DNA of 64,000 nucleotides from Polynucleobacter sp. es-MAR-4 (GTDB taxonomy: Bacteria; Pseudomonadota; Gammaproteobacteria; Burkholderiales; Burkholderiaceae): the NCBI RefSeq assembly GCF_018882055.1, contig NZ_JACVPF010000002.1:310001-374000 (forward strand), given 5' to 3'. Of the stretch, positions 2,678-8,158 are shown piece after piece. Within the stretch, counting starts at the first letter, position 1; the number at the start of each line of letters is the position of its first letter. The notes beneath the pieces are model-generated. The model saw nothing but the letters and a program-made list of their open reading frames with translations. It had not been told where the DNA came from and made no database searches. The translations under genes were made by a program, and so were the position numbers.

Positions 2678-2696
2678 ATTGAGAATCATTCTCATT
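2678..2696. promoter_or_regulatory. Fur box-like operator, copy 1
   Basis: The sequence attgagaatcattctcatt closely fits the proteobacterial Fur consensus of inverted GAGAAT/ATTCTC hexamers. It repeats almost exactly 27 bp downstream. It covers the -35 hexamer of the promoter at 2679-2707, so bound Fur-Fe(II) would be expected to block transcription of the operon starting at 2752. Fur binding is inferred, not shown. Confidence 0.75.
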
Positions 2697-2707
2697 TACT
2701 GTATATT
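2679..2707 (+). promoter_or_regulatory. Sigma70-type promoter of the iron/flavin operon
   Basis: TTGAGA at 2679-2684 and TATATT at 2702-2707 are separated by exactly 17 bp. Transcription would begin near 2714, about 38 bases before the first gene at 2752. Both hexamers overlap the two Fur-like boxes. Confidence 0.65.
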
Positions 2708-2723
2708 GCGAATCATTCTCATT
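2705..2723. promoter_or_regulatory. Fur box-like operator, copy 2
   Basis: attgcgaatcattctcatt differs from the first box at one base and covers the end of the -10 hexamer and the likely start site. Two tandem boxes 27 bp apart suggest cooperative Fur repression. Confidence 0.72.
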
Positions 2724-2751
2724 TACCTTTATTAACCAGCCCCCCATCACC

Positions 2752-3666
2752 ATGAAACTCACCATCAAACGACTGATTGCCTTCACCATCCTGTTAGCCA
2801 CCGCCTTGCACTTCTCTTTCGCCAATGCGGGTGAAGGAGCATTTGGATGGATTTACACCCTCGACCTTCAGCCTAAAGGAAAGGTCGAATTTGAACAGCG
2901 CTTACAACTCAATAAACAGCAGGCAGCCGGCACCTACGATGCCTGGACCGCTAGAACTGAATTGGAATATGGGCTTACCAATAATTTACAAATTGCTGGC
3001 TACATCAACTCCTACTACACCAGCGCAAATCAGAATTACACCAACCCGGAAGCTTGTGGTGATAGCCCAACTTGTACGGGTGGTTATGGAGTCCCCTCGG
3101 GACATGACCCTGCTACTGCATATAGAAAAAGCGGGATTGAAGGCGGATCTTTAGAGGCCATCTATCGACTGACTAATCCAGTCACATCTCCAGTTGGTGT
3201 CGGACTCTATCTGGAACCAACATGGGGGAGAAATAAAGATGAAATTGAGGCTCGCCTACTACTGCAATCCAATTTCATTGATGACCGCCTGGTCTTGGCA
3301 GGTAACGTAGTAGTGGCCAATGAACGTTTGAAGTTTATTGAGAATGGGAATGTCCCCGAATCCATGCTCGACTTCCTTGTCGGCGCCAGTTATCGATTTG
3401 CGCCCAAATGGTCCGCCGGTGTCGAGGCACGCTTCCATAACGACTACTCAGAATTAAATTTACGCAATCAAGTGCAGCGCGCAACCTTTGTTGGACCCAA
3501 TATGCACTACGCCGCAAAAGATTGGTGGGTCACTGGTGCATGGCGCTATCAGCTGAAGGGTGGAACCTGTATGGGTGGTGGTGAGGCGGAGTGTTCCAAT
3601 GCACGCGTTTGGGATAGTCACTCCGTCAATGAATTCATTGTCAAAGTCGGTTTCCCGCTGAACTAA
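2752..3666 (+). CDS. DUF6662-like predicted outer-membrane protein
   Basis: This 304-residue protein has a clear signal peptide (about residues 1-26, cleavage after FANA). The rest is made of alternating aromatic/hydrophobic beta strands with short turns and ends in KVGFPLN, so an outer-membrane beta-barrel is the most likely fold. It has two close Cys pairs, one near residues 102-108 and one near 274-282. I believe it matches the DUF6662 family, whose function is unknown. It is the first gene after the Fur-like promoter and precedes a 59-residue ORF, an FMN-binding protein and ApbE. A role in iron passage or in holding the electron-transfer partners is inference only. Confidence 0.7.
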   Translation: MKLTIKRLIAFTILLATALHFSFANAGEGAFGWIYTLDLQPKGKVEFEQRLQLNKQQAAGTYDAWTARTELEYGLTNNLQIAGYINSYYTSANQNYTNPEACGDSPTCTGGYGVPSGHDPATAYRKSGIEGGSLEAIYRLTNPVTSPVGVGLYLEPTWGRNKDEIEARLLLQSNFIDDRLVLAGNVVVANERLKFIENGNVPESMLDFLVGASYRFAPKWSAGVEARFHNDYSELNLRNQVQRATFVGPNMHYAAKDWWVTGAWRYQLKGGTCMGGGEAECSNARVWDSHSVNEFIVKVGFPLN

Positions 3667-3701
3667 ATCCAATCTCTTCAATCGTTAAGTTAAAGGTAAT
3701 T

Positions 3702-3881
3702 ATGGAAAAGCAAAATTTATTAATGGCAGCACTCATACATCTAGTTCAGTTTCAGTCTACCCACTGTGCAACTGCAAGAGAGCGGGCTTTAATGATGTTT
3801 GATGCCCTCTCTCAGTTAAACGAAAGCAATGCAGAGTTGGACAATCTCTGCCTTGAAGCGAATGCACTACTCACTAGCTAA
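3702..3881 (+). CDS. Small 59-residue protein in iron/flavin operon
   Basis: An AAAGG ribosome-binding site lies six bases before the ATG, and the frame encodes 59 residues beginning MEKQNLLMAALIHLVQFQ. It has two Cys (one after STH, one in the DNLCLE segment), a Leu-rich helical character and no signal peptide or obvious membrane helix. It sits 35 bp after the outer-membrane gene and 68 bp before the FMN-binding gene, on the same strand. I do not recognise a characterised family. Its ribosome-binding site and operon position make it a likely real gene, perhaps a small regulator or assembly factor. Confidence 0.6.
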   Translation: MEKQNLLMAALIHLVQFQSTHCATARERALMMFDALSQLNESNAELDNLCLEANALLTS

Positions 3882-3949
3882 TACATTGGCCTATTCAAAC
3901 GCCCCTCACACTCAAACAAAAACACAAACACAAACACAAAATTAACAAT

Positions 3950-4504
3950 ATGCTTTGGAAACCCAACCCCTTATTGATTGTTGGTCTAGCTGCAGTAACG
4001 CTACCAATCGTTGCACAAGCGAAGATATATGTATCTGTTGAGCAGGCGCAAAAAATACTCATCCCCAACAAAGCTTTGATCAAAAATCCCATCATCATCA
4101 CAGAAGAGCTGCAGGACAAAATGCGCTCTGCGTCGAGCATTCGTCACCCCTTTCAAGGTGATCGCATTTGGAAAGCATCTGACGGCAGCTGGTTCATCGT
4201 AGATGAGGTGGTTGGTAAGCATGAAATGATTACATATGCGGTGGCTCTCAGCCCATCTGGCACAGTCACTGGAATTGAGATATTGGACTATGTCGAATCC
4301 TATGGCTATGAGGTGGCTGAAGTGCAGTGGCGCAAGCAGTTCGTAGGCAAAACGGCAGCAGACCCTATTAAGCTGAACCAAGATATACAGAATATTGGTG
4401 GCGCCACCCTTTCCTGCAAACATCTCACCGATGGCGTCAAGCGAGTTGCAGTGTTGTATGACATTGCACTCAAAAAACAATCTGAAGCTCTCAAAGCAAA
4501 ATGA
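3950..4504 (+). CDS. Periplasmic FMN-binding domain protein
   Basis: This protein has 184 residues with an N-terminal signal peptide (about 1-24, cleavage near VAQA). The C-terminal half is an FMN-binding domain like that of NqrC/RnfG. The attachment site is GGATLS at residues 150-155, where Thr153 would receive FMN through a phosphoester bond, as in the SGAT motifs of the family. The first motif residue is Gly instead of Ser or Asp. The next gene, ApbE, is the enzyme that installs this FMN, and the two overlap by four bases (ATGA). No Shine-Dalgarno is visible; the leader has repeated acacaa units at about 3910-3943. It probably acts as a one-electron carrier in the periplasm. Confidence 0.85.
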   Translation: MLWKPNPLLIVGLAAVTLPIVAQAKIYVSVEQAQKILIPNKALIKNPIIITEELQDKMRSASSIRHPFQGDRIWKASDGSWFIVDEVVGKHEMITYAVALSPSGTVTGIEILDYVESYGYEVAEVQWRKQFVGKTAADPIKLNQDIQNIGGATLSCKHLTDGVKRVAVLYDIALKKQSEALKAK

Positions 4505-5328
4505 TTCGCTGCAAACCCCTCTTAGGTACCTTTGTTGAAATTTCAGCTGAAGATAGAAAGCACTCACTCCATGCAATAGAGATGGCATTCACAGCCATTG
4601 AGCAGGTTCAGTCCCTGATGGGATTTCATAACCCCGACAGTGAGCTTTCACAAATCAATGCTAGGTCTTATTTAGAGCCGATTCGCATTCACTCCTGGAC
4701 GGCTAAAGTGCTGACTATTGCCCAAGAAATTCAGATTGAGTCTCAAGGCATATTTAATTGCGGAGTTGGTCATCTACTAGTAGAGGTAGGTCTACTTCCA
4801 AAGTGTTTCAGCTTAGGCAATCACTCATTTGGTGGCATTGAAGATCTCCGATTTATTGAGCCCAACTTGGTTCAATCCAAGCTCCCGCTCTGCCTTGATC
4901 TTGGTGGCATTGCCAAAGGCTATGCAGTAGATAAGGCAGTAGAGGTCTTAGTTGATCACGGCATTCATTCGGGATCCGTTAATGCTGGGGGTGACATGCG
5001 CATTTTTGGGGATCTCGCTCAGGACATTCAAATACGCAGCCCTTCAAATCCCCACGAACTTATTCAGATTGGCAGCATGAGGGCGGGTGCGATTGCGACT
5101 AGCAGCCTCTACTTTTCAAAGCGCGACGCTGATGCAAAAAGTTATATGGTTAACCCAATTAATCAAGATCATGTTGAATTTTTAGAGTCTTACTCAGTGA
5201 TTGCTGATGAGTGCGTCTACGCAGATGCATTAACCAAGCTAGTCAGCGTTACTGGAGATACCCAGCACCCCTGCTTAAGTCATTTTTCTGCACAAGCAAT
5301 CAGAATTCCCAACCCACCCATCTCATGA
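4501..5328 (+). CDS. apbE: FAD:protein FMN transferase (ApbE family)
   Basis: The 275-residue protein begins MIRCKPLLGTFVEIS, a typical ApbE opening. It contains GGIAKGYAVDKAVE, SVNAGGDMRIFG and a C-terminal YADALTKLVS segment, the expected FAD- and Mg-binding motifs. The enzyme transfers FMN from FAD to Ser/Thr of target proteins, here very likely the protein encoded just upstream. Unlike most ApbE proteins it has no lipoprotein or other signal peptide, and its start is fixed by the ATGA overlap. It may therefore modify its target before export or be exported another way. It also overlaps the next gene by four bases, showing translational coupling. Confidence 0.88.
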   Translation: MIRCKPLLGTFVEISAEDRKHSLHAIEMAFTAIEQVQSLMGFHNPDSELSQINARSYLEPIRIHSWTAKVLTIAQEIQIESQGIFNCGVGHLLVEVGLLPKCFSLGNHSFGGIEDLRFIEPNLVQSKLPLCLDLGGIAKGYAVDKAVEVLVDHGIHSGSVNAGGDMRIFGDLAQDIQIRSPSNPHELIQIGSMRAGAIATSSLYFSKRDADAKSYMVNPINQDHVEFLESYSVIADECVYADALTKLVSVTGDTQHPCLSHFSAQAIRIPNPPIS

Positions 5329-5750
5329 AAAATACCAGTCGCCTTGGCAAGATGCCAGCCTGGCAAAGAAATTTTGTCCTCATTGGCATGTTGAGCTGCT
5401 CCCTTACCGGCTCAGCCTATTTACTTGGCCATGAGTTTCATATTGAACGCGCCATATTAGGGGCTCATTCCGTTTTAATGTGGCATGGCATTGCCGCGAT
5501 GATAGCCACGCTGGCATTGGGCTCAGTCTTACCTTTTCACCTAAAGGCAGGCCTAAAGTCTAAGAGAAAGCTGTATAGCGGATTAAGCCAATTGGTTTTT
5601 TTAGCTACTTTATTGATATCAGGCGCTTTGTTGTACTACGGTCCTGAAGAAATTCGAGAGAATGTCATCACTACACATTGGCTAGTTGGTCTCGCATTCT
5701 TCGCTATTTTTCTGCTGCATGGCATTTATGCCAAAAAGTTGGCGCCCTAA
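5325..5750 (+). CDS. Four-helix His-rich membrane protein, putative cytochrome b
   Basis: The start is the ATG overlapping the ApbE stop, giving 141 residues. Four hydrophobic helices are visible (about 16-36, 45-70, 84-106, 115-135). Histidines lie in or near them at positions 36, 39, 48, 54, 72, 118 and 132. His118 and His132 in the last helix are 14 residues apart, the spacing used for stacked hemes in cytochromes b. By its place after an FMN-binding protein and ApbE it could pass electrons from quinol to the periplasmic flavoprotein, as DUF4405-like membrane cytochromes are proposed to do. Family membership and heme binding are inferred. Confidence 0.6.
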   Translation: MKNTSRLGKMPAWQRNFVLIGMLSCSLTGSAYLLGHEFHIERAILGAHSVLMWHGIAAMIATLALGSVLPFHLKAGLKSKRKLYSGLSQLVFLATLLISGALLYYGPEEIRENVITTHWLVGLAFFAIFLLHGIYAKKLAP

Positions 5751-5810: not shown

Positions 5811-6023
5811 TTACTTACAGCAAGAGTCTTTGCCGCAAGATGTTCCACAAGAATTGATTCCCAATAATGGGTACGCTGGGCAGAAACGGAAAATACCAGT
5901 TGCCAAAGGAATCAGTCCAAGCCAGCCCCACCAGCCTACGATACCGTTGGCTGCAAGCGCAACCAGCACAATACCTACTGAGATTCTTAAAATACGATCG
6001 ATACCACCGACGTTACATTTCAT
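5811..6023 (-). CDS. DUF2892 (YgaP-like) membrane protein
   Basis: This 70-residue protein opens MKCNVGGIDRILRI, the usual DUF2892 start, with two hydrophobic helices (about 13-28 and 30-48). The tail is Cys-rich and carries five Cys, in FRFCPAYP and NSCGTSCGKDSCCK. A GGGAG ribosome-binding site precedes the ATG. DUF2892 proteins often accompany rhodanese, MBL-fold dioxygenase and BigR genes in sulfur metabolism, as here. The Cys-rich tail may carry sulfane sulfur, but this is inference. The gene is last in the minus-strand run dioxygenase, sensor, DUF2892. Confidence 0.8.
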   Translation of the reverse strand: MKCNVGGIDRILRISVGIVLVALAANGIVGWWGWLGLIPLATGIFRFCPAYPLLGINSCGTSCGKDSCCK

Positions 6024-6063
6024 ATTGAACTCCCTTTAAAAACGATTAAATAATTCCTTGCTG

Positions 6064-6387
6064 CTATTTTTTGCAGTAATGCTTGTATAGCAAACTCATC
6101 ACGGATACAGCCACCTGACTTGATAGGGAATAGTAAATTTGCTTACCTTCTCTACGTGTTTTAACAAGCTTCTCCTTACGCAATACCGTGAGCTGCTGTG
6201 AAAGAGTTGGTTGATGTAAATCTAGCGCGGCCTCTAGCTCACCCACACATTTTTCAGCCTGACCAATTTCGCATAAGAGCATCATGCGATCCCGATTAGA
6301 TAAGACCTTCATCAGTTTGCAAGCATCATCTGCCGATGATTGCATCTTCTTTAACTCTGCCTTAGTAATGGGCATATTCATCATCAT
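6064..6387 (-). CDS. ArsR-type repressor, BigR/SqrR-like persulfide sensor
   Basis: A 107-residue winged-helix regulator with an ArsR fold; the recognition helix region is HQPTLSQQLTVLRKEKLV, followed by a beta wing (RREGKQIYYSL). Cys39 and Cys105 are 66 residues apart, the same spacing as the two redox-active Cys of BigR and SqrR, which form a sulfur-linked bridge with persulfide and release DNA. The neighbouring MBL-fold dioxygenase, DUF2892 and TauE genes match a BigR regulon. Three in-frame ATG codons occur at the start (6387, 6384, 6381); AAGGA directly abuts the first, so initiation at the second or third is also possible. Confidence 0.82.
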   Translation of the reverse strand: MMMNMPITKAELKKMQSSADDACKLMKVLSNRDRMMLLCEIGQAEKCVGELEAALDLHQPTLSQQLTVLRKEKLVKTRREGKQIYYSLSSQVAVSVMSLLYKHYCKK

Positions 6388-6394
6388 TCCTTGA

Positions 6395-7267
6395 TCAGAG
6401 TGCGTTTAATGGGATTTTTAAATATGCGACGCCATTGGCATCTGGCTCAGGAAAGTGTCCAGCACGTATATTGACCTGGATCGACGGCAGGATCAGCACT
6501 GGCATCTCCAAAGTTTTGTCTCGTGCAGTCCGCATCTGCACAAACTGCTCTTCAGTCACGCCATCATGCACATGAATATTGTTTGCCTTCTCATCAGCAA
6601 CCGTAGTCATGCAATTCGCAGGACGGCCATTGGGTGGATAGTCATGGCACATATAGAGCTTGGTCTGACCAGGGTAAGACAAGATCTTCTGAATCGAACG
6701 ATAGAGCGTCTTCGCATCACCACCCGGAAAATCACAGCGCGCTGTGCCAACATCCGGCATGAATAAGGTATCACCTACAAAAATTACATCGCCGATTTCA
6801 TAAGCCATGCAAGCAGGAGTATGGCCGGGCACAAAGAGCGCTTTTAAGGAAAGATTTCCGAAGGTAAGTGACTCACCCTCTTTCAGCAGTTGATCAAATT
6901 GCCCACCATCTGCCTTAAAGCTATCGCCCAGATTGAAGACGCCTTTAAATACGGTTTGGACATTAGTGATGTGATCCCCAATCACTAATTTGCCACCCAA
7001 GTGGCTTTGCAGGTAAGGGGCAGCAGTTAAATGATCTGCATGGGCGTGGGTTTCCAATATCCAACTTACCTTGAGTTGATGAGCTGCAACGAAGGCAATG
7101 ACCTCATCAGCTGATTTAGTGCTAGTTCTGCCTGATTTAGGGTCATAGTTCAGCACAGAGTCAATGATCACGCAGGGGCTACCATCACCCTCATAGACTA
7201 CATAGGTGAAGGTCCAGGTTTCTGGATCAAAAAAGTCTTTAATCAGAGGGGTGTGCTTTGTAGTCAA
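6395..7267 (-). CDS. MBL-fold persulfide dioxygenase-like hydrolase
   Basis: This is a 290-residue metallo-beta-lactamase-fold protein with HAHADH at 74-79, His149 (PGHT), Asp166 (FVGDT) and His208 (MCHDY) as metal ligands. This pattern fits the ETHE1/Blh persulfide dioxygenase group, which oxidises glutathione persulfide to sulfite in the cytoplasm. It lacks the extra N-terminal DUF442 domain found in BigR-operon Blh proteins. The likely start is TTG at 7267 with GAGAG upstream; no ATG lies near. It is seven bases before the BigR/SqrR-like gene, so both are probably co-transcribed and derepressed by sulfide. Glyoxalase II is a less likely alternative. Confidence 0.82.
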   Translation of the reverse strand: MTTKHTPLIKDFFDPETWTFTYVVYEGDGSPCVIIDSVLNYDPKSGRTSTKSADEVIAFVAAHQLKVSWILETHAHADHLTAAPYLQSHLGGKLVIGDHITNVQTVFKGVFNLGDSFKADGGQFDQLLKEGESLTFGNLSLKALFVPGHTPACMAYEIGDVIFVGDTLFMPDVGTARCDFPGGDAKTLYRSIQKILSYPGQTKLYMCHDYPPNGRPANCMTTVADEKANNIHVHDGVTEEQFVQMRTARDKTLEMPVLILPSIQVNIRAGHFPEPDANGVAYLKIPLNAL

Positions 7268-7270
7268 GAT

Positions 7271-7286
7271 ATTCTCTCAGTTGAAT
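7271..7286. promoter_or_regulatory. ATTC-N8-GAAT site, probable SqrR/BigR operator
   Basis: ATTC and GAAT are separated by exactly eight bases in the divergent promoter region. This matches, from memory, the core reported for SqrR binding. The site starts four bases upstream of the dioxygenase start codon and overlaps the -35 hexamer of the TauE promoter, so it could control both directions. Confidence 0.6.
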
Positions 7287-7310
7287 AAATATAATATATA
7301 TTTATATACT
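7281..7310 (+). promoter_or_regulatory. Predicted promoter of the TauE/SafE gene
   Basis: TTGAAT (7281-7286) and TATACT (7305-7310) are 18 bp apart, placing the start about 15-20 bases before the ATG at 7334. An eight-base perfect inverted repeat, ataaatat/atatttat with a five-base spacer (7285-7305), fills the spacer and could be a second operator. Confidence 0.5.
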
Positions 7311-7333
7311 ATATTAATCTAAAATAAATTGCA

Positions 7334-8158
7334 ATGGACTACTCAACCCTCATCAGCCCAGCACTAGGCATCCTAGTGGGCGTCCTTATGGGCCTCACTG
7401 GTGCCGGGGGTGGGATTTTGTCAGTGCCCCTGCTGGTCTTCTTTCTAGGACTACCGATTGCAGAAGCAGCCCCAATTGCACTGTGTGCTGTTGCCCTTGC
7501 TTCTAGCGTTGGGGCCATCCTAGGCCTCAGGAACAAGATTTTGCGCTACAAGGCAGCAGGTTTTATGGCGATCTTTGGCTTGGCGCTATCACCCTTAGGA
7601 CTATGGATCGCACCGCAGATTCCGAATGCGCCCTTGCAGATCGTATTTAGCTTAATCCTCTTGTATGTTGCTATTCGCTTGTTGACCCAGGCTCGCAATC
7701 AGATCAACGGCGTTCCTGAAGAAAGCCGAAAACCCCCTCCATGTCTTATCAACCCCGCTATTGGAAAACTCCAATGGACCCTACCCTGTGCGCGCGCCCT
7801 CATGTTCGCTGGCAGTCTGGCTGGGTTTTTATCGGGATTACTGGGTGTTGGTGGCGGATTCATCATCGTGCCAGCCCTCAAGCGCTATACCGACTTACCA
7901 GTCAAATCTATTGTGGCCACTTCGCTTGGGGTACTAGCTATCATTACTGGCGGTGGAGCAATTTTCTCGGCAGCCAGTGGCGGTTTAAATATTGCAGTTG
8001 CTGCACCATTCGCACTTGCTGCATTGGGCGGACTATTACTTGGGATGCTATTAGGTAAAAAATTAAGTGGCCCGCATACTCAGCTCATTTTCTCGATCTT
8101 TACATTAGCAGTTGCTATCAGCCTACTAATTAAAGGCGTTCTCATTTTGAATTCGTGA
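7334..8158 (+). CDS. TauE/SafE family sulfite exporter-like permease
   Basis: This 274-residue membrane protein has about eight hydrophobic helices. Two internal repeats each carry a Gly-rich motif: GLTGAGGGILSVPLLV near residue 20 and GLLGVGGGFIIVPAL near residue 171. These define the TauE/SafE family of sulfur-compound exporters. It is divergent from the dioxygenase/BigR operon and shares its regulatory region. Dioxygenase action yields sulfite, so this protein most likely exports sulfite from the cytoplasm. Substrate is inferred from context. It overlaps the next gene by four bases (GTGA). Confidence 0.85.
   Translation: MDYSTLISPALGILVGVLMGLTGAGGGILSVPLLVFFLGLPIAEAAPIALCAVALASSVGAILGLRNKILRYKAAGFMAIFGLALSPLGLWIAPQIPNAPLQIVFSLILLYVAIRLLTQARNQINGVPEESRKPPPCLINPAIGKLQWTLPCARALMFAGSLAGFLSGLLGVGGGFIIVPALKRYTDLPVKSIVATSLGVLAIITGGGAIFSAASGGLNIAVAAPFALAALGGLLLGMLLGKKLSGPHTQLIFSIFTLAVAISLLIKGVLILNS

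Follow-up and report, generated by a model that had tools for sequence, protein, structure and literature searches.

What would a freshwater Polynucleobacter with a genome of 1.93 Mb gain from keeping, behind two Fur-type boxes, a predicted flavoprotein, a candidate enzyme for loading it and a histidine-rich membrane protein? This question is raised by positions 2678 to 5750 of a 64,000-nucleotide stretch of Polynucleobacter sp. es-MAR-4 (contig NZ_JACVPF010000002.1, positions 310,001 to 374,000; hereafter the window). The original prediction described the locus as a Fur-controlled flavin electron-transfer operon that perhaps reduces ferric iron in the periplasm. What it observed is confirmed and exceeds chance, and its interpretation is supported in part. 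Our analysis leads to a Fur-repressed trans-envelope cassette in which electrons would run from quinol through a diheme cytochrome to a flavin mononucleotide (FMN) protein that reduces periplasmic ferric iron. The donor, the acceptor and the covalent attachment of FMN are inferred, and we judge the complete scheme to be about evenly balanced between right and wrong. The features of the locus are listed below with the evidence for the assignment of each gene.

2679-2707, plus strand: sigma-70-type promoter, TTGAGA-N17-TATATT, between and under the boxes.
2680-2694: Fur-type box 1, TGAGAATCATTCTCA, a perfect 7-1-7 palindrome that overlaps the -35 element.
2707-2721: Fur-type box 2, TGCGAATCATTCTCA, with one mismatch, beginning at the last base of the -10 element.
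2752-3666, plus strand: DUF6662 outer-membrane protein, 304 amino acids (Pfam, AlphaFold2 (AF2) model, Foldseek, conservation).
3702-3881, plus strand: optional 59-residue protein with two conserved cysteines, C22 and C50 (open reading frame (ORF), codon-position differences).
3950-4504, plus strand: FMN_bind protein of the RnfG/NqrC type, 184 amino acids (Pfam, alignment with RnfG 7zc6, motif).
4501-5328, plus strand: ApbE-family flavin adenine dinucleotide (FAD):protein FMN transferase, 275 amino acids (Pfam, alignments).
5325-5750, plus strand: four-helix DUF4405/cytochrome-b561-like membrane protein, 141 amino acids, predicted to be diheme (conservation, model, folds).

The five plus-strand ORFs occupy 2752-5750 as first described, and the last three genes, claimed to be coupled by four-base overlaps, do share an ATGA overlap of 4 nt at both the FMN_bind/ApbE and the ApbE/cytochrome junctions. 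A Pfam scan of the five proteins returned DUF6662 (47.5 bits, cut-off 27), in agreement with the proposed DUF6662-like outer-membrane protein, together with FMN_bind (40 bits) and ApbE (131.8 bits, cut-off 25.6). The same scan gave no family match for the 59-residue protein, none above the cut-off for the 141-residue membrane protein and no PepSY_TM protein among the five. Differences in the 59-residue gene, summed over 18 relatives, fall 345/178/606 on the three codon positions, and the gene looks coding but optional; its product (3702-3881) carries a conserved RALMMFE-like stretch in addition to the two conserved cysteines.

To evaluate the conservation of the gene set, its members were followed through related genomes. 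Of 61 genus genomes, 49 encode the FMN_bind protein, as do 55 of 101 relatives overall. All four main genes (barrel, FMN_bind, ApbE and cytochrome) are present at 44 of 50 other genus loci in a single-sequence search and at 45 of them with profiles (L077 being gained), and two of the incomplete loci (L069, L085) are cut off by the end of a contig. A broader sample of 80 named loci, the best 80 of 526 confirmed candidates and therefore leaning to close kin, retains all four genes in 67 cases. Half of these 80 are close relatives by similarity, with titles partly other than Polynucleobacter; 33 of the 40 loci outside this half hold all four genes, three of the 40 (L145, L146 and L178) being same-genus contigs, and 14 of the 80 named loci repeat genus loci. 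The four-gene loci include Acinetobacter, Variovorax, Nitrospirillum and Verrucomicrobia records, in a sample where several titles are those of metagenome bins and some names may be wrong. The DUF6662 barrel is present in 76 of the 80, usually directly upstream of FMN_bind, and is missing from 3 of the 40 outside the close relatives, while the 59-residue gene occurs at 18 of the 50 genus loci and at none of those 40. Nine more distant loci, taken from other families of the order (L079, L081-L084) and from a class sample (L195, L197, L199, L200), all carry FMN_bind, ApbE and the cytochrome together.

The genes around the cassette are unremarkable and differ from one locus to another outside the close relatives. 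It is found at other chromosomal places as well, with second copies in two genomes, and eight plasmid records contain a match; of two plasmid regions examined, one bears no annotation, and on a Sphingomonas plasmid the four genes are annotated as DUF6662, FMN-binding, FMN transferase and hypothetical. No conserved neighbour was detected outside the cassette, with no family appearing more than three times among the 115 of 199 flanking ORFs scanned at named loci outside the close relatives. The gene neighbourhood is non-random, the cassette being kept amid varied flanks.

Control by Fur had been proposed from two near-identical boxes straddling a promoter, and these elements are present: GAATCATTCTCATTTAC occurs exactly twice in the window, at 2683-2699 and 2710-2726, the two 7-1-7 palindromes hold 0 and 1 mismatch, and TTGAGA-N17-TATATT lies at 2679-2707 as claimed. 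At up to three mismatches, 0.33 copies of GAATCATTCTCATTTAC would be expected and two were reached in 6 of 100 shuffles. As a bare consensus match the promoter lacks significance (2 such matches against 5.6 expected from shuffling); the box-TATATT-box arrangement is repeated in relatives. The 7-1-7 pattern, which we take to be a Fur-type consensus, was picked after the boxes had been seen. Sites with at most one mismatch number four in the whole genome, and two of these are the cassette boxes. The third stands 63 bases before an ORF reading as a periplasmic ferric-binding protein, which is followed by TonB/ExbB/ExbD and receptor-like ORFs (translations read by eye), and the fourth lies approximately 110 bases upstream of an ORF resembling a high-potential iron-sulfur protein (HiPIP), likewise read by eye. 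A two-mismatch site precedes a second copy of the binding protein by about 60 bases. Since the genome-wide count at two mismatches barely exceeds that of the control (33 versus 21 per strand), only the best sites carry weight.

The relatives extend this picture. In 684 kb of their neighbourhood DNA, 7-1-7 sites number 35/38/26/99 at 0/1/2/3 mismatches, near-perfect sites being in excess. Of 38 close-relative loci, 36 have two boxes at a spacing of 27-30 nt, and at 28 of these 36 the -10-like sequence that fits best between the boxes is TATATT. A box with at most one mismatch stands upstream, no more than about 200 bp away, at 38 of 39 close-relative loci and 13 of 39 others (10 of 36 when the three same-genus loci are set aside), as compared with 0.05% of mononucleotide-shuffled upstream regions. 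The genome encodes one FUR-family protein (142 bits). The rarity of the sites, the conserved pairing, the single FUR-family protein and the like boxes at apparent iron-uptake genes support Fur control, and the cassette is apparently switched on by iron starvation.

The membrane protein was examined through conservation and structure prediction. Its alignment comprises 66 of 72 sequences (complete, below 88% identity, the window protein included), and His54, His72, His118 and His132 are retained in 66, 66, 66 and 65 of them, respectively. The model of the 141-residue protein is a four-helix bundle with a mean predicted local distance difference test score (pLDDT) of 90.5, in which His54 and His72 lie on helix 48-79 and His118 and His132 on helix 108-139; two bis-histidine hemes could therefore be placed, one towards either face of the membrane. 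Fold searches, which covered the cytochrome and barrel models, gave E. coli FdnI as the top Foldseek match (template modelling score 0.67 on the query, E 0.17), followed by cytochrome b561 and CybB with unrelated FAT-domain bundles in between. The top of the VIA-align ranking holds designed diheme proteins, the hydrogenase-1 cytochrome b (HyaC), CybB and FdnI, at Z 9.9-11.2. Among 53 aligned members, Pfam DUF4405 matches 28 at E of 0.1 or below (best 1.6e-5; weak matches, which do not include the window protein) and the cytochrome b561 profile weakly matches 17. The four near-invariant histidines on two helices, and the diheme b-type cytochromes among the best folds, support the suggested heme-type membrane protein, and we predict the product to be diheme-cytochrome-b-like. 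In one relative, L063 (G011), the second half of the cytochrome gene appears to be frameshifted, with loss of the last two conserved histidines.

The FMN_bind protein is apparently exported, its signal having been judged by eye, and it aligns with RnfG 7zc6 across the acceptor region. Its acceptor motif is NIGGAT, with Thr153 as the T of GGATLS. According to the review PMC12052999 the flavinylation motif is D-x-x-[ST]-G-A-[ST] and the last Thr/Ser is the acceptor, which places Thr153 at the acceptor position and makes it the likely FMN site, as had been proposed. Ser155, considered first as the acceptor, was dropped on the same definition. The G-A-T of the motif is invariant in 19 aligned FMN_bind proteins.

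The mechanism that we propose would operate as follows. When iron is scarce, Fur would leave the two boxes and the operon would be made. The inner-membrane diheme cytochrome b would take electrons from the quinone pool, with His72/His132 probably near the cytoplasm and His54/His118 near the periplasm as read by eye from helix position and charge, and would pass them to the exported FMN_bind protein, whose FMN may be attached at Thr153 by the partner ApbE, as its family suggests. The reduced flavoprotein would in turn reduce ferric iron or ferric chelates in the periplasm and so allow more iron to be assimilated, and the acidic DUF6662 barrel, where present, may serve at the outer membrane as a docking partner or as the channel of entry. 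The analysis itself establishes the regulatory signature, the conserved association of the genes, the near-invariant histidines, the predicted folds and the acceptor motif. Part by part, the electron-transfer reading is well supported; ferric iron is the best but an unproven acceptor.

Several associations connect the cassette with iron uptake. Within the genus FeoB occurs in 36 of 49 cassette genomes versus 1 of 12 genomes without the cassette (p 5e-5, kinship ignored; the FeoB status of G054, G056, G057 and G058 was obtained by subtraction). In the other families of the order the figures are 6/6 versus 11/34 (p 0.003, kinship again ignored), and without one weak sister-type match among the six they are 5/5 versus 12/35 (p 0.009). 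The ferric-binding protein is present in all 12 genus genomes that lack the cassette and in 23 of the 49 that have it. FeoB and this binding protein are near-complementary across the genus (G000-G060), the latter being present in 22 of 24 genomes without FeoB and 13 of 37 with it. According to PMC6629928, no iron-uptake systems other than ferrous ones, such as FeoAB, are known in P. asymbioticus, which is another species. In addition, the genes of a sister FMN_bind family are clustered with a porin-like ORF and a gene for a PepSY_TM protein (all 5 of the 5 partners scanned match this Pfam family), and this cluster lies a few kb from feoB in at least three genomes of two genera (L192, L193 and L194, that is G237:C13, G445:C61 and G391:C131). 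The position of the sister family beside feoB therefore supports an iron role for the wider group, and the PepSY-like protein VciB is reported to reduce iron (PMC8238504). At L196 a sister-type FMN_bind gene faces a DUF4405-like cytochrome gene rather than one for PepSY_TM.

Several observations weigh against the proposed scheme. With respect to regulation, no site in the window fits the classical 19-base Fur consensus GATAATGATAATCATTATC, even with three mismatches allowed, and of the 39 upstream regions from beyond the close relatives 18 lack a box even at two mismatches. With respect to gene content, the flanking genes of the other cassettes are varied and show no iron theme, and the DUF6662 barrel is missing from six of the nine more distant loci (L081-L084, L197, L199). 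Because of these absences we regard the three redox genes as the core, which is kept in many bacteria of distant kinship; of the five-gene set as predicted, the redox trio is the most constant part, the barrel is usual without being universal, and the 59-residue gene is optional. The Foldseek E-values of the cytochrome exceed 0.1 with unrelated helical bundles ranking similarly, and in VIA-align designed non-heme bundles score equally, Z near 10 being common for helical bundles. The motif Asp is present in 1 of 77 FMN_bind relatives, and the motif Ser/Thr position is Gly in 33 of the 77; this Asp is also absent from two aligned RnfG sequences. In ApbE the equivalent of His257 (V. cholerae numbering) is Tyr here and is not conserved (compared with 6nxi and 4xdt, and mapped through 6nxj, taken from its sequence to be the H257G mutant). 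D280 and T284 of E. coli ApbE bind metal 1 (PMC4767422), and the position of this metal-ligand Thr, four residues after the invariant Asp, is Lys (Lys246) in 71 of 71 aligned ApbE proteins, the window protein included. Finally, this genome gave no match to FeoB (FeoB_C), FTR1 or Nramp, 13 of the 49 cassette-bearing genus genomes lack FeoB, and the FeoB association is gone at class level (2/7 versus 156/361, p 0.70, kinship ignored), where the positives are the seven non-own matches above 200 bits and the other 68 places (48-77 bits) were treated as the sister family. FeoB as a universal partner was rejected, failing both at class level and in this genome.

The last group of observations bears directly on the first alternative, in which the same Fur-controlled envelope electron transfer serves a non-iron acceptor, either as an electron sink or as a reductase of organic compounds or oxidised proteins when iron-rich respiratory enzymes run short. 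The absence of FeoB, Nramp and FTR1 matches here and of iron genes flanking the cassettes outside the close relatives would fit this alternative, as would the box shared with an apparent HiPIP, a redox protein, and the many acceptors that flavinylated systems serve (PMC8238504). Two hemes nevertheless appear to be required by the cassette itself, which would make it ill suited to saving iron, and both the FeoB association in genus and order and the sister family beside feoB point back to iron. We consider a non-iron acceptor somewhat unlikely.

The second alternative concerns ApbE and is compatible with any acceptor. ApbE would not flavinylate the FMN_bind protein, whose FMN would be non-covalent or which would be otherwise modified, and the signal-less enzyme would instead act on a cytosolic protein or bind or hydrolyse FAD. 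No in-frame start exists upstream of 4501, leaving by ORF start no room for a signal peptide, and among the relatives (76 of the 80 named loci have an ApbE) the LLGT-type motif is preceded by 22 residues or fewer in 61 of 65 measurable proteins. Together with the variable His257 position and the Lys in place of the metal-ligand Thr, this would fit such a role. Against it stand the 4-nt overlap and co-conservation with the FMN_bind gene, the finding that this ApbE is the only ApbE match in the genome, and the retention of the Ser241 and Asp285 equivalents in 70/71 and 71/71 aligned proteins; moreover, some ApbEs are cytosolic, and H257G reduces activity without abolishing it (PMC12052999). The cytosolic Klebsiella pneumoniae ApbE, cited in that source, resembles the cassette enzyme in lacking a signal peptide; its substrate is a soluble fumarate reductase, whereas the presumed substrate of the cassette ApbE looks exported. 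FMN-binding protein plus ApbE had been presented as an established covalent system, and the ApbE domain with its Ser and Asp is indeed in place. The precedent is not automatically transferable here, because the enzyme lacks a signal peptide, its His is not conserved, Lys replaces Thr and the substrate looks exported. Covalent flavinylation is likely by association and not secured, and we hold this second alternative to be unlikely.

The barrel was modelled with 12 strands (AF2 pLDDT 91.4), and its Foldseek matches are FapF, COG4313 and NanC. DUF6662 is recognised at E of 0.01 or below in 33 of 33 aligned members. Conservation, assessed on 36 of 77 sequences, singles out E46, E70, E72, E155, E166, E225, R215, H252 and K298 on the more polar strand faces; we read these residues as facing the lumen, and they may form either a cation path or a structural salt-bridge network. 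The barrel was also considered as a flavinylation target, like DUF3570, and rejected, its GAS at 211-213 having no preceding Ser/Thr and not being fully conserved. At L197 a porin-like ORF (3751-5073) with an N-terminal coiled-coil-like stretch, as seen by eye, precedes FMN_bind in place of DUF6662; a similar porin-like ORF precedes FMN_bind at the sister loci, the L192 copy having no Pfam match. An outer-membrane uptake system centred on the barrel, importing an iron-containing or other small substrate and served by the redox genes (for example through reductive release), would fit the conserved Glu, His, Arg and Lys residues and the barrel's usual place directly upstream of FMN_bind, but the loci without a barrel, both among the distant nine and among the 40 outside the close relatives, and best fold matches to 12-strand channels or secretion parts make it improbable.

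Downstream of the cassette, positions 5811-8158 of the window hold a YgaP-like transmembrane protein and an ArsR-type regulator (Pfam), then ORFs resembling a metallo-beta-lactamase-fold persulfide dioxygenase and a TauE/SafE-like exporter (by eye); the segment looks like a sulfide/polysulfide-response locus.

Comparison with described systems places the cassette as a variant of flavin-based envelope electron transfer. It shares with RnfG/NqrC the FMN_bind domain and its GAT acceptor region, and differs from them in having no Rnf or Nqr gene among the five, a small secreted-looking protein and a replaced motif Asp. Like the PepSY-like flavinylation clusters (eLife 2021, PMC8238504), it would combine envelope electron transfer with ApbE; those clusters are Fur-repressed in Shewanella and Caulobacter, with ferric reduction proposed. 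Their membrane part is PepSY and their common flavin carrier DUF2271, whereas the cassette has a DUF4405-like cytochrome and FMN_bind; the sister FMN_bind family, unlike the cassette, does use a PepSY_TM protein. The closest parallel for the membrane protein comes from PMC10979944, the preprint of an mSystems 2024 paper (PMC11334425), which demonstrates heme b binding by a DUF4405 protein and describes DUF4405 genes as clustered with apbE. The cassette likewise has apbE clustered with a His-rich membrane protein with conserved His, and the DUF4405 cytochromes are linked through FezC to iron, as proposed for the cassette. DUF4405 proteins are described with six transmembrane helices, and the partner emphasised for them is a flavinylated flavodoxin; the cassette protein, in contrast, has four helices in its model with all four His in one chain, and its cluster includes an FMN_bind partner, the DUF6662 barrel and Fur boxes. 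As DUF4405 is described as a six-helix family, we term the membrane protein DUF4405-like and not a plain member.

Literature searches, made mostly on titles and abstract openings with few subscription journals covered, returned no paper describing DUF6662, FMN_bind, ApbE and Fur together; the word DUF6662 was not found in the papers searched, nor was the combination of FMN_bind, a signal-less Lys-type ApbE, a four-helix DUF4405-like cytochrome, the usual barrel and Fur boxes. A search of PMC4348036 gave no match, the available text of PMC7376174 makes no mention of FMN or ApbE, and PMC12004947, by its outline and abstract, deals with another system.

A bolder version of the proposed scheme, which we offer tentatively and consider rather unlikely, would join two elements: a widespread iron-starvation conduit, running from quinol through a diheme four-helix cytochrome to the FMN protein and usually accompanied by a dedicated 12-strand barrel, and a new class of cytosolic Lys-type FMN transferases that lack the metal-ligand Thr and the His base and would use an invariant Lys instead. 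Such an enzyme would load the flavin before export of its carrier, and therefore no FAD export would be needed. If the proposed scheme is true, it raises the question of whether a non-exported ApbE without the usual His and Thr can flavinylate an exported protein. A function would then follow for DUF6662 and for a membrane protein that bears no more than the label hypothetical in the single annotated record examined, and many bacteria would gain a predicted assimilatory ferric reductase.

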